A stretch of 45,578 nucleotides of DNA from Alphaproteobacteria bacterium. Its GTDB lineage: Bacteria; Pseudomonadota; Alphaproteobacteria; Micropepsales; Micropepsaceae. Location: contig JAEUMK010000015.1 in assembly GCA_016792565.1 (NCBI GenBank), forward strand, positions 1 through 45,578, written 5' to 3'. Shown here piece after piece: positions 3,886 through 28,956 of this stretch (within the stretch, counting starts at the first letter, position 1; each line of letters opens with the position of its first letter). Below the pieces are notes generated by a model. That model saw nothing but the letters and a program-made list of their open reading frames with translations. It made no database searches and was not told where the DNA came from. Position numbers and translations under genes: made by a program.

Positions 3886-3918
3886 GGGGCGGGATGTAGC
3901 GTCTGCGGCGCGCGAGCG

Positions 3919-21833: not shown

Positions 21834-22793
21834 CTAGGCTGCCAGGCTGCGGCCCATGCGCAGGAATTTCTCGCGCCGCTCGCGCTTCAGCGTCGCGCCG
21901 TCCTTGCCGGCCAGCGCCGCGAGTTCCGCGGCGATCGCCTCGCCCACCGCCGCGACCGCCGCCAGCGGGTCGCGGTGCGCGCCGCCGACCGGCTCCGGGA
22001 TCACCCGGTCGATCACCTTCAGCGCCAGCAGGTCCTGCGCCGTGATCTTCATCGCGGTCGCCGCGTCCGCCGCCTTGTCGGCCGAGCGCCACAGGATCGA
22101 GGCGCAGCCTTCCGGCGAGATCACCGCATAGATCGAGTGCTCCAGCATCATCACCGCATTGCCCGCGGCGATGGCGATCGCCCCGCCCGACATGCCCTCG
22201 CCCGTCACCACGCAGATGAGCGGCACTTCCAGGCTGAGCGAGCGGTCGGTCGAACGGGCGATCGCCTCGGCGACGCCGCGCTCCTCCGAGACCAGGCCCG
22301 GATAGGCGCCCGGCGTGTCGGGCAGCGTGATGACCGGCATGCCGAAGCGGTCGGCGAGATCCATGATGCGGATCGCCTTGCGATAGCCTTCCGGCGTCGC
22401 CATGCCGAAATTGTGCTTCAGGCGCGACTTGGTGTCGTTGCCCTTCTCGTGCCCGATCAGGGCGACCGGCTGGCCGCGGAAGCGCCCGAGGCCGCCGACG
22501 ATGGCGGCGTCGTCGCCGAAGCCGCGGTCGCCGGCGAGCGGCGTGAAGTCCTCGATGAGGCCGCGCACATAGTCGTAGAAATGCGGCCGGCCGGGATGGC
22601 GGGCGACCAGCGTCTTCTGCCAGGGCGTCAGCTTGGCGTAGGTGTCCTTCAGAAGCTGGGCGGCGCGGGCCTCCAGCCGGGACGCCTCGTCGGCGACGTT
22701 CATGCCGGGCGTCGCCTCGGCCAGCTTGCGCAGCTCGGAGACCTTGGTCTCCAGCTCGGCGATCGGCTTCTCGAATTCGAGATAGGTGCTCAT
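21834..22793 (-). CDS. accA: Acetyl-CoA carboxylase carboxyltransferase subunit alpha
   Basis: A 319-residue subunit that, with AccD, transfers the carboxyl group from carboxybiotin to acetyl-CoA, the committed step of fatty acid synthesis. Typical blocks are [22 protein letters not shown]-like [35 protein letters not shown] and [18 protein letters not shown] at 22793 is preceded by TGAGG and is the family start. accD is elsewhere. Confidence 0.96.
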
Positions 22794-22861
22794 GGGCCTC
22801 ACATCCGCGATGGAGGGGGCGTCTGTCAATCGCGGCTGCCGTTACGTTAACGCCGCGCGCC

Positions 22862-22887
22862 GGTCACAAATCGTCCAGAGCCCCGTC
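22862..22887 (+). promoter_or_regulatory. Candidate ECF41-type promoter for the sigma-factor operon
   Basis: GGTCACA (22862-22868) is followed after 15 bases by CGTC (22884-22887), placing transcription start near 22893, about 20 bases before the first gene at 22915. From memory, ECF41 sigma factors recognise TGTCACA with CGTC about 16 bases downstream. One base and one spacer position differ, so the match is good but not perfect. It implies autoregulation. Confidence 0.5.
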
Positions 22888-22914
22888 TTTGCCAGGAGAC
22901 AAGGACGGTTCGGC

Positions 22915-23301
22915 ATGTTCACCCGGCTTCTGGCGGCGGCGCTCGCCCTCTTTCACGGCCTCAACGCGGCGGCGATGATCGCCGCTCCCGGCGACTGGTA
23001 TGGGGCGACGCCCGGCGTCGCGCTGACCGGGCCGTTCAATCCGCATTTCGTGGTCGATATCGGCTTCGCCTTCCTGGTCGCCGCGGCCGGTTTCGCCGCC
23101 TACGCTGTCCGCCCGGCGCTCGGCTGGGGCGTCGCGGCGATGGCCGCCGCCTGGCCGGGCCTGCACGGGCTCTTCCACCTCGTCCACATCCACCATGCCC
23201 CGGCCGCCTCGGCGGCGCTGGAAGCCGGCGGCGTCGTCGTTCCCGGCGCGCTCGGCCTCTTCGTCGCCTGGCGCGCCGCGCAGATCCAAGGGAGTCTCTG
23301 A
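22915..23301 (+). CDS. Four-segment membrane protein of unknown function, first gene of ECF41 operon
   Basis: A 128-residue protein with about four hydrophobic segments (3-22, 47-66, 70-90, 104-120). Between the third and fourth lies a His-rich run with His84, His88, His91, His93 and His94, which could bind a metal or haem. It is similar in size to DoxX-like proteins, but I cannot assign it to that family. ATG at 22915 with AAGGA upstream. Its stop overlaps the next ATG (TGATG), so it is coupled to the CXXC protein. Confidence 0.75.
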   Translation: MFTRLLAAALALFHGLNAAAMIAAPGDWYGATPGVALTGPFNPHFVVDIGFAFLVAAAGFAAYAVRPALGWGVAAMAAAWPGLHGLFHLVHIHHAPAASAALEAGGVVVPGALGLFVAWRAAQIQGSL

Positions 23302-23846
23302 TGCTCGGCTGGCTCTATCATCGTATGATCCGCAGGCTGGAGACGCGCTACCGCTATGACGCGAGCTATCTGCACGAGATGACCGACGCATCGCCCGGGG
23401 CCTTTCGCCGCTTCGTCCGCGCCCAGACGGCGCTGCGGATGCGGGGCGCCGCGCCGCCGGGCGCCTGGTTCGGCGCGATGCTGGCCGCGACGCTGCACGA
23501 GGATTGCGGCCCCTGCACCCAGCTCGTCGCCGACATGGCGCTGGAGGCCGGCGTCGCGCCGGACGCGGTCCACGCGCTGCTCGCCGGCGGGCCCGCCGAT
23601 CCCGACGCCCAGCTCGGCTTCGACTTCGCCGCCGCCTTCTGCAAGGGCCACAGGGTCGCCGCAGACCTGCGCGCCGAGGTGGAGCGGCGCTGGGGCAAGG
23701 AGACCGTCATGGCGCTGGCGCTGACCGCCGCCGGGGCGCGCAGCTATCCGCTGGTGAAACGGGCGCTCGGCCATGCCGCCGCCTGCACCCGCATCCGCCT
23801 GCCGCACGGCGAGGTGGTCGTCGCCCAGCCGCTGGAGGCCGCATGA
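23301..23846 (+). CDS. Divergent carboxymuconolactone decarboxylase/AhpD-like protein with CGPC motif
   Basis: A 181-residue all-helical protein. Residues 67-72 (EDCGPC) give a CXXC pair preceded by an acidic residue, as in AhpD and carboxymuconolactone decarboxylase-like proteins, followed by QLVADMALEAGV. The His usually found four residues after the second Cys is Val76, so the proton relay is altered, and CGPC is the thioredoxin active-site sequence. A second block (ALTAAGARSYPLVKRALGHA) resembles the family's C-terminal helix. Position directly before an ECF41 sigma gene supports the family call. Confidence 0.65.
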   Translation: MLGWLYHRMIRRLETRYRYDASYLHEMTDASPGAFRRFVRAQTALRMRGAAPPGAWFGAMLAATLHEDCGPCTQLVADMALEAGVAPDAVHALLAGGPADPDAQLGFDFAAAFCKGHRVAADLRAEVERRWGKETVMALALTAAGARSYPLVKRALGHAAACTRIRLPHGEVVVAQPLEAA

Positions 23847-24727
23847 GCGGCGCCGCCCGCCACGGCGACGCCTTCGAGGCCGAGCGCGGCCGGCTCGTCC
23901 GCCTCGCCTACCGGATGCTGGGCGAGCGCGCCGCCGCCGAGGACGTGGTCCAGGAGACCTTCCTGCGCTGGGCGAAGGCCGACCGCGGCGCCGTCGCCAA
24001 TCCGCAGGCCTGGCTGACCCGCGCCGCTTCGCGCCTCGCCATCGACGCGCTGCGCAAGGCGAAGGCGCGGCGCGAGGCGTATGTCGGCCCCTGGCTGCCC
24101 GAGCCGGTGGTCGAGCCGCTGGCCGAAGCGGGCGAGGAAGACGATCGCGCCGAGCGCATCAGCCTCGGCTTCCTGCATGTGCTCGAACGCCTCAGTCCCG
24201 ACGAGCGCGCCGCCTTCATCCTGCACGACGCCTTCGACTGCGGCTACGACGAGATCGCCGCCGCGCTGAAGAAGACCGAGACCGCCTGCCGCAAGCTGGT
24301 CAGCCGGGCCCGCGAGCGCGTGCGTTCGGGCCGCCCGCGCTTCGAGACCGACCGGGCCGTGCAGCAGCGCGTCGTCGCCGCCTTCATGGCGGCGGCCGCC
24401 AATGGCGACGCGGCGGCGATGAAGGCGCTGCTGACCGAGGACGCGATCGTCTATTCCGACGGCGGCGGCAAGGCGCGCGCCGCGCTGCGCCCGCTGGTCG
24501 GCCCGGACGACGCGGTGCAGGTGCTGATCAGCGTCGCGCGCAAGCATGCCGGCGAGATCGCCGACATCGCCGCCGTCGAGGTCAACGGCCAGTTCGGCCT
24601 CGCGCTCTCGCAAGGCGGCGTGCTGCACTCGCTCTACACAGCCGACATCGAGGAGGGCCGCATCGCCCGCCTCTTCATCGTCCGCAATCCCGAAAAGCTG
24701 GCGCGCGCCCAAGGAGCGCTCGGCTGA
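23843..24727 (+). CDS. ECF41-family RNA polymerase sigma factor (SigJ-like) with SnoaL-type C-terminal domain
   Basis: A 294-residue sigma factor. Region 2 is at about 10-75 (RLVRLAYRMLGERAAAEDVVQETFLRW), region 4 at about 110-165 (GYDEIAAALKKTETACRKLVSRARERV), then a SnoaL/NTF2-like extension. The three motifs I associate with ECF41 are present: WLPEP (84-88), DGGGK (206-210) and NPEKL (282-286). In this group the extension replaces an anti-sigma factor. Its ATG overlaps the previous stop (ATGA). The likely target is its own operon promoter at 22862. Confidence 0.9.
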   Translation: MSGAARHGDAFEAERGRLVRLAYRMLGERAAAEDVVQETFLRWAKADRGAVANPQAWLTRAASRLAIDALRKAKARREAYVGPWLPEPVVEPLAEAGEEDDRAERISLGFLHVLERLSPDERAAFILHDAFDCGYDEIAAALKKTETACRKLVSRARERVRSGRPRFETDRAVQQRVVAAFMAAAANGDAAAMKALLTEDAIVYSDGGGKARAALRPLVGPDDAVQVLISVARKHAGEIADIAAVEVNGQFGLALSQGGVLHSLYTADIEEGRIARLFIVRNPEKLARAQGALG

Positions 24728-24813: not shown

Positions 24814-25188
24814 ATGCTCGACGGCGCGAAGGCGGTCGCCTTCATCTCGACCACCGACACCGAAACGGCGCGGCACTTCTACGGCACGGTGCTGGGGCTG
24901 CACCTCACCCAGGATCCGTTCGCGCTGGTCGCCCGCATCGGCGACGCGATGGTGCGCATCACCACGCTGCCCGGCTTCAAGGCCGGCCAGCATCCGGTCT
25001 TCGGCTTCGCGGTGGACGACATCGCCGCCTCGGCGCAGAGGCTCAGCGCGCACGGCGTCGCCCTCATCCGCTACGAGTTCCTCGGCGACGCGCAGGGCCC
25101 CGACGGCATCTGGACCGGACCGGACGGCACCAAGGTCGCCTGGTTCAACGACCCGGACGGCAATCTCCTGTCGCTGACCGGGCGCTAG
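24814..25188 (+). CDS. VOC family protein (glyoxalase/dioxygenase-like)
   Basis: A 124-residue vicinal-oxygen-chelate fold protein: VAFISTTDTETARHFYGTVLGL, a middle segment GFAVDDIAASAQRLSAHGV, and the closing WFNDPDGNLLSLTGR. Metal ligands are not complete enough to choose between glyoxalase, dioxygenase or resistance protein. ATG at 24814 has GGAGG 9 bases upstream. It lies 86 bases after the sigma gene in the same orientation, so it may belong to the ECF41 operon or have its own promoter. Confidence 0.85.
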   Translation: MLDGAKAVAFISTTDTETARHFYGTVLGLHLTQDPFALVARIGDAMVRITTLPGFKAGQHPVFGFAVDDIAASAQRLSAHGVALIRYEFLGDAQGPDGIWTGPDGTKVAWFNDPDGNLLSLTGR

Positions 25189-25195
25189 GGCGGCC

Positions 25196-26182
25196 TCAGC
25201 CGCCGGTGCGGGCCGCGATGATGTCGGCCTGCTTGACGATCACCTCGGCCTGGCGGATCGAGGCGGCGTCGATGAGCACGCCCTTATAGGTCGCCGCGCC
25301 CGCGCCCGAAGCCTGCGCCTCGGCCATCGCGGCGAGAATGGCGCGGGCCTTCTCAACCTCGGCGGTGGGCGGCGTGAAGACCTCGTTGGCCAGCGGCACC
25401 TGGTTGGGATGGATCGCCCACTTGCCCTCGCAGCCGAGGATCGCCGTGCGGTTCGCCTGCACGCGGAAGCCGTCGGGATCGTTGTAGTCGCCGAACGGCC
25501 CGTCGATCGGCGTGATGCCGTGGGCGCGCGCCGCCGCGACCATGCGGATCAGCGGATAGTGCCACAGGTCGTTCCAGTGGCGCACCCGCGCGCCGTTCTC
25601 GTCCTTGTCGGTGAGCATCACGTAGTCGGCGTTGCCGCCGCCGATATTGGTGGTGCGCATACCCGCCGAGGCGGCGTAGTCGGCCGAGCCGAAATGCACG
25701 CTCTGCAGCCGCTTCGAGGAACCGCAGATCGCGTCGATATTGGTCATGCCGAGCGCCGTTTCGAGGATCACCTCGAGCTTGATCTGCTTCTTCTTGCCGA
25801 CAAATTTCGAGGCCTGGGTCACCAGCATGTCGACGGCGTAGACGTCGGCGGCGACCCCGACCTTGGGGATCATGATGGCGTCGAGCCGCTCGCCGCCCAG
25901 CTCCACCAGATCGATCACGTCGCGATAGGCGAGATGGGTGTCGAGCCCGTTGATGCGCACGGTGACGATCTTGTCGCCGAAATCGACCTCGTTGAGCGCC
26001 TGCACGACGTTCTTGCGGGCCTGCACCTTGTCGGCGGGCGCGACCGCGTCCTCCAGGTCGAGGCAGACGACGTCGGCGGGGCCCTTCGCCGCCTTCTCGA
26101 AGAACTTCACCTGGCTGCCGGGCAGGAACAGCTTGGAGCGGTAGAGCGGCGCCTCGGCGCGGTCGACGGTGGTGAAGGACAT
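25196..26182 (-). CDS. mcl1: HpcH/HpaI-citrate lyase beta family, L-malyl-CoA/beta-methylmalyl-CoA lyase-like
   Basis: A 328-residue CoA-ester lyase. It has SKLFLPGSQVKFFEKAA, VVCLDLEDAVAP, the Arg/metal block IMIPKVGVAADVYAVD, the Mg-binding Glu in LEVILETALG and Asp in FGSADYAAS, then GPFGDYNDPDGF and KWAIHPNQV. This order matches malyl-CoA lyases such as Mcl1 of Rhodobacter, used in the ethylmalonyl-CoA and related pathways. The precise substrate is uncertain. ATG at 26182 has CGGAG upstream. No other pathway genes are adjacent. Confidence 0.85.
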   Translation of the reverse strand: MSFTTVDRAEAPLYRSKLFLPGSQVKFFEKAAKGPADVVCLDLEDAVAPADKVQARKNVVQALNEVDFGDKIVTVRINGLDTHLAYRDVIDLVELGGERLDAIMIPKVGVAADVYAVDMLVTQASKFVGKKKQIKLEVILETALGMTNIDAICGSSKRLQSVHFGSADYAASAGMRTTNIGGGNADYVMLTDKDENGARVRHWNDLWHYPLIRMVAAARAHGITPIDGPFGDYNDPDGFRVQANRTAILGCEGKWAIHPNQVPLANEVFTPPTAEVEKARAILAAMAEAQASGAGAATYKGVLIDAASIRQAEVIVKQADIIAARTGG

Positions 26183-26335
26183 GGCACGGCTCCGGCAATC
26201 GTTTCGCGCCGCAGCATAAAGCGGAGGCGCGGCGCCCATGCAAGTTTGCCCTTACGTCAGCGATGGACGCGAGGCCGGTGCTGCGCTTCACTCCGCCCGC
26301 ACGCGGCGCACGAGACGCCCGAGGAGGAGACCAGG

Positions 26336-28851: not shown

Positions 28852-28956
28852 AAAGACCCACACCGGCGTCAAGCGCGCCCGCCTGCGGCGGTTTGGCGGT
28901 TTGCGCCGGCCGCGCCGGCGTTCAAGCTGGCGGCGCAGACAAACCGGGAAACGCCC

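Follow-up and report, generated by a model that had tools for sequence, protein, structure and literature searches.

Three overlapping genes at positions 22915-24727 of the window (the whole 45,578-nt stretch of DNA that was analysed) encode a membrane protein, a CxxC protein and an ECF41 sigma factor, and to judge from their sequences and from those of their relatives they probably form an autoregulated operon, with a thiol redox module linked to the membrane as its likely output. ECF41 is among the most widespread sigma-factor groups. As proposed in the earlier note, the genes are coupled through a TGATG overlap between genes 1 and 2 and an ATGA overlap between gene 2 and the sigma gene, both of which were found where that note had placed them. 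The operon and its promoter contain the following features:

22862-22868, plus strand: -35-like element GGTCACA of an ECF41-type promoter, conserved in related loci.
22884-22887, plus strand: -10-like element CGTC after a spacer of 15, conserved in related loci; the spacing matches that of the mapped ECF41 promoters described in PMC3426412 and PMC6180224.
22915-23301, plus strand: gene 1, a four-helix membrane protein of 128 aa, DoxX-like candidate; ATG at 22915, stop codon TGA at 23299-23301.
23044-23058, plus strand: His44 and Asp48 of the membrane protein, where helix 2 begins, both invariant (37 of 37 sequences).
23164-23178, plus strand: His84 and His88 of the membrane protein, within helix 3 and likewise invariant (37 of 37 sequences).
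23301-23846, plus strand: gene 2, a CxxC protein of 181 aa with a predicted AhpD/CMD fold, from a divergent subfamily; ATG at 23301, stop codon at 23844-23846.
23502-23516, plus strand: DCGPC motif (Asp68-Cys72) of the CxxC protein, invariant in 52 of 52 sequences.
23784-23786, plus strand: third invariant cysteine of the CxxC protein, Cys162 (52 of 52 sequences).
23843-24727, plus strand: gene 3, an ECF41 sigma factor of 294 aa (sigma2, sigma4 and a SnoaL-like extension); ATG at 23843.
24092-24106, plus strand: WLPEP linker motif of the sigma factor (residues 84-88); an ECF41 motif according to PMC3426412.
24458-24472, plus strand: DGGGK motif in the SnoaL-like extension, conserved in the alignment.

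The operon lies between accA (21834-22829, minus strand), from which it diverges, and an HpcH/HpaI-type gene (25196-26239, minus strand), with which it converges, and this order is kept in many relatives, making losses of the sigma or membrane gene readily visible. A VOC/glyoxalase-family gene located 86 nt 3' of the sigma gene (24814-25188, plus strand) was considered as a fourth member of the operon and rejected, no match to it being found in any of 80 related loci; it is probably a local insertion outside the operon.

The identification of gene 3 as an ECF41 factor, with a putative regulatory domain of its own, was borne out. Matches to the Pfam models of sigma regions 2 (r2, 3.1e-14) and 4 (r4_2, 1.7e-13) both exceed the cut-off, the WLPEP linker is in place and sigma4 is followed by a SnoaL-like C-terminal extension of ~130 residues (~100 being usual for the group), whose Pfam SnoaL_2 match is below cut-off. 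The NCBIfam SigJ model is matched with 323.7 bits, above its cut-off of 271, TIGR02957 with 311.3 bits, slightly under its cut-off of 323.25, and the best PDB match is SigJ of Mycobacterium tuberculosis (5xe7; residues 9-286, E 1.6e-46). WLPEP-type and DGGGK motifs are retained in an alignment of 19 related sigma factors. Gene 3 thus falls within the ECF41 group under the definition given in PMC3426412. In other ECF41 proteins, the extension is reported to inhibit the sigma factor, an effect that a ligand would relieve (PMC3426412; PMC8999054). A sigma search of the whole genome returned one strong ECF41 match, which is this locus. In a sigma tree, ECF41 factors linked to the membrane gene and other ECF41 factors are clustered yet interspersed, with 11 changes, and a single origin of the membrane-linked factors is therefore not claimed.

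A scan of 84,980 species genomes (GTDB) returned 402 loci with a relative of the CxxC protein, the best 80 of which were kept, a selection via the CxxC protein that biases the set towards look-alike loci. About three in four of these best 80 loci also have the membrane gene, nearly always directly upstream. Within the same best 80 of 402, the trio occurs in Alpha-, Beta- and Gammaproteobacteria, and the loci from Acidobacteriota, Planctomycetota and Myxococcota have the CxxC gene and the sigma gene, usually without the membrane gene. Rhizobium plasmids have the same trio, annotated as hypothetical, hypothetical and sigJ. When 240 genomes of the class were drawn, 22 had a strong CxxC match, with the membrane gene adjacent, by its coordinates, in 13 of them. 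Fusion of the membrane protein with the CxxC protein in a single frame was found at two loci, L048 (Oceanicaulis; 308 aa) and L093 (307 aa), with no methionine near the junction of the L048 fusion. The pair was also found without the sigma gene (L030, L032, L039, L046, L083 and L107), in reversed order at L083 and L107, where LysR-type and transporter-like genes, named by eye, are located upstream. At L033, the loss removes precisely the sigma gene from between the CxxC and HpcH genes, and the promoter is kept. On such comparisons, the two upstream genes are a linked pair. In one Rhodobiaceae bacterium the membrane gene is present twice in 3.3 kb (L051; 282-662 and 3562-3987), and only the second copy adjoins the CxxC gene.

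Many ECF sigma factors are held by co-encoded membrane anti-sigma factors, and the close linkage of the three genes, with their coupled translation, would suit a similar arrangement in the window, with the membrane protein, alone or together with the CxxC protein, acting as a sensor or anti-sigma factor that controls the sigma factor, and the CxxC pair as a redox switch. This is nevertheless unlikely, since the pair is found without the sigma gene, many ECF41 sigma factors have no such membrane gene nearby and unlinked membrane genes, L018 in the same genus and L122 and L123 in another, retain an ECF41-type promoter. L018 belongs to an operon split in genome G001, whose membrane gene (L018) and CxxC gene (L043/L190) each have their own motif; among second, unlinked membrane genes elsewhere, the motif is absent from two (G126 and G201) and poor in two more (G156 and G259). 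In addition, for other ECF41 factors no part of the neighbouring gene in signalling was found, and activity was seen in a heterologous host (PMC3426412). Because of the fusions, the pair without a sigma gene, the sigma loss at L033 and the unlinked membrane genes that keep the motif, the sequence evidence favours the membrane and CxxC proteins as the output of the system rather than its sensor, although a feedback role of the upstream genes on the sigma factor may be compatible with the same evidence.

Gene 2 had been described as encoding a CMD-like protein, in line with the decarboxylase-like, oxidoreductase or epimerase genes that ECF41 factors are known to adjoin. This holds at the level of the fold, which is that of AhpD/CMD, and not at that of sequence, since the window protein has no CMD match in Pfam. 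Its model (pLDDT 95) aligns with Bmp8 over 166 residues (Z 14.2, 3.3 Å) and with AhpD (Z 14.1), and the first 17 rows of structure matches are all CMD/AhpD proteins, after which Z falls to 3.4; Foldseek gives the AhpD-like, all-helical fold a probability of 1.00, with no match at E < 0.001. The CxxC is Cys69-Gly-Pro-Cys72, and the residues invariant in the family are D68-C-G-P-C72, Q74, P150, K153, G157 and C162. That the protein is an ordinary AhpD-type peroxidase or CMD, and the operon the ECF41-CMD pair already known, joined by a membrane gene that hitch-hikes without being related to it, would be in accord with its fold, with the weak matches to Pfam CMD (PF02627) of 27 of the 52 relatives (best 7.8e-06) and with the histidine that some of these relatives have at the AhpD position (CxxC and His at +4). 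However, in the window protein this position is occupied by Val76, and DCGPC together with the third invariant cysteine sets the subfamily apart. CMDs encoded in ordinary ECF41 operons of S. meliloti and Paracoccus have CxxCxxxH and match the CxxC family profile only faintly. With a membrane gene that is, moreover, conserved and sometimes fused, the ordinary-CMD explanation seems improbable.

Gene 1 had been noted as encoding a membrane protein of four segments, and its AlphaFold2 model is indeed a four-helix bundle (mean pLDDT 96). Loop charges (K+R of 1.05 and 2.27 for the two termini and 1.70 for loop 2, against 0.19 for loop 1 and 0.51 for loop 3) indicate an N-in/C-in topology, in which the CxxC domain of a fusion protein would be cytosolic and the His/Asp residues would lie towards the outer face. 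The sequence has no match in Pfam, NCBIfam or the PDB, and among its 37 relatives three match Pfam DoxX_2 (PF13564; best 6.2e-08) and 11 have weak matches to DUF4345. The model resembles TMEM35A (Z 10.5) and VKOR (Z 8.5), values within the range that unrelated helical bundles attain, and Foldseek returned nothing at E < 0.001, its matches being tied with tetraspanins and other bundles. The DoxX-like label therefore stays that of a candidate, and the model is compatible with, not decisive for, a kinship to DoxX/VKOR-like quinone-linked proteins.

The promoter-like GGTCACA-N15-CGTC was present as claimed. Its CGTC ends 27 nt 5' of the membrane-gene ATG, and a transcript would be expected to start at ~22893-22895; the motif had been put about 20 bases upstream of the leader start, a distance that is correct if counted from the -35 element and not for the -10 element, which is ~6 nt before 22893. 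The genome search recommended in the earlier note, with exact TGTCACA-N15..16-CGTC, gave two sites, one of them intragenic and neither of them the operon's, and the first base must thus be relaxed. In the window motif this base is G in place of the published T, as it is C, G or A in 21 of 66 related promoters, and relative to TGTCACA-N(16 +/- 1)-CGTC the sequence before the operon has this one mismatch and a spacer of 15. The spacer is 15 in operons of the same genus and mostly 16 elsewhere. Exact KGTCACA-N15-CGTC occurs six times in the 3.07-Mb genome, in several cases inside genes. Among the 78 scorable loci fetched via the CxxC protein, a looser form of the motif was found within 200 nt upstream in 59 of the 61 whose sigma gene is complete versus seven of 17 without one (Fisher p 8e-7, which overstates independence because the loci are related), and this form occurred in 12 of 2988 background windows of equal size (0.4%). 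Among the seven, L070 has a sigma gene cut by the contig end and L105 retains a short sigma-like piece, and some of these loci are, on such sequence signs, recent losses or artefacts. Loci found via the membrane protein gave a similar picture, N-GTCAC-A-N15/16-CGTC being upstream in 20 of 21. The sole motif-less locus, L015, belongs to genome G031, rated 100% complete, in which a genome-wide sigma search found no sigma gene and the membrane/CxxC pair is retained without the promoter. Judged by this conservation the promoter is real, and autoregulation of the window operon would follow from it. A chance match, with the operon driven by a housekeeping promoter, e.g. in the divergent intergenic region common to accA, could draw on the deviating first base and the intragenic occurrences, but is highly improbable given how position and sequence are kept in sigma-bearing loci and how rare the motif is in the background. 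A GTTAACG or TTGTCAACG block was seen by eye ~10-15 nt 5' of GTCACA in the window and at L009, L010, L016, L017 and L022-L024; its opposite strand resembles a TTGACA -35 element, and the block may be part of the promoter that drives divergent accA.

Further targets outside the operon, as candidates only, emerged from footprinting across five genomes of the genus. NGTCACA-N15/16-CGTC has 54 sites in these genomes, compared with 36 and 31 for wrong-spacer controls (N11-12 and N18-19, respectively), and the controls yielded a single pair shared between genomes, in a coding-like region and with a spacer that has hardly changed. Apart from the operon, four groups of orthologues, which arose from scanning few genomes and were not fixed beforehand, carry the motif a short way 5' of the gene in two or three genomes whose spacers have diverged. 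From the control rate, a motif before a given gene is expected by chance at ~1e-4. The first is a cytochrome c gene, with the motif in three (G000, G002 and G004) of the four genomes that have it and none in G003. In the window genome (G000), this gene (L151) is on another contig, where GGTCACA-N15-CGTC is found 71 nt upstream (C78, ~28930-28955, minus strand), in a site that overlaps a coding-like frame. The second group encodes a canonical CMD and the third a PEP-mutase-like protein; each gene is present in only two of the five genomes, G001 and G003, and is preceded in both by the motif (27-28 nt before the start and 30-31 nt upstream, respectively). The fourth encodes a secreted-looking protein of ~260 aa, with the motif upstream in G002 and G003. 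Several motif sites, including the operon's own, overlap coding-like frames on either strand, which makes coding overlap a weak filter. An O-methyltransferase gene (L149) preceded at 34 nt by CGTCACA-N15-CGTC (C50, ~3891-3916, minus strand) is a possible further target in the window genome. Single-genome cases with the motif just upstream are a hydrophobic 127-aa protein in G003 (L178, 1274-1654) and an arylamine N-acetyltransferase in G001 (L185, 1261-2109). ECF41 regulons larger than one operon have a precedent in Azospirillum, where lateral flagella are under the control of RpoE10, an ECF41 factor (cited in PMC12826043).

Taken together, these data outline a model in which the SnoaL-like extension would restrain the sigma factor until a signal, probably a small molecule, is received, as work on other ECF41 proteins suggests. 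RNA polymerase with the sigma factor would then recognize GGTCACA-N15-CGTC and, as the conservation of the trio implies, transcribe the three genes as one unit. The cytosolic AhpD/CMD-fold dithiol protein would work with, and probably dock on, the four-helix DoxX-like membrane protein, and reducing equivalents might pass between the cytosolic thiols and the His/Asp site near the membrane's outer face. The basis for this chemistry is the fold together with the conserved residues, and a shared fold does not establish function. In the genus, the same sigma factor probably also activates the cytochrome c gene, which would provide a link to respiration, and, where present, the canonical CMD and PEP-mutase-like genes. 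More tentatively, the membrane and AhpD-fold CxxC proteins could constitute a thiol redox complex linked to the membrane and not described before, in some cases as one polypeptide, which moves reducing equivalents across or into the membrane and is commanded by several regulators, of which ECF41, with a small regulon including cytochrome c in this genus, would be one.

In the first two organisms studied, the ECF41 regulon was thought to comprise a single operon, and the footprint in the window genus suggests more. A membrane partner that is conserved and sometimes fused, together with trans candidates such as cytochrome c and canonical CMD, leads to a concrete redox hypothesis for ECF41. An ECF41 factor with a CxxC gene was already known, and within the literature searched a membrane partner that is conserved, its fusion to the CxxC protein and a footprint covering several genes appear new, although PMC3426412 mentions unnamed hypothetical ECF41 neighbours and the trio may have been seen there without being named.

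Comparison with known systems places the window operon as follows. The CxxC protein shares its fold over most of the chain with Bmp8, SMU.961 and S. pneumoniae AhpD (Z 14.0-14.2, rmsd 3.1-3.3 Å) as well as the CxxC itself, but is only 11-14% identical to them, lacks the AhpD histidine and has a third invariant cysteine. The membrane protein resembles TMEM35A (NACHO), VKOR and DoxX-like proteins in its modelled four-helix arrangement, with Z values that are not decisive, and lacks the paired membrane cysteines of VKOR. SigJ of M. tuberculosis has a SnoaL-like extension in common with the window sigma factor, whereas identity is low and the gene neighbourhood is, as far as known, different. In SMb20029-rpoE9 of Sinorhizobium meliloti (PMC6180224), a CxxC gene directly precedes the ECF41 gene and the mapped promoter has the same elements, but the CMD, of ~157 aa, has CxxCxxxH and there is no membrane gene. 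Similarly, RSP_0606-ecf41 of Rhodobacter sphaeroides and ydfG-ecf41 of Bacillus licheniformis have a sigma factor of the same group with WLPEP and a C-terminal extension, a CxxC gene upstream as in the window and a promoter of the TGTCACA-N16-CGTC type (PMC3426412). Their CxxC protein is a canonical CMD, and their own operon is the only target reported in that paper, whereas the window operon has a divergent AhpD-fold protein and a conserved membrane protein, with further targets predicted in the genus.
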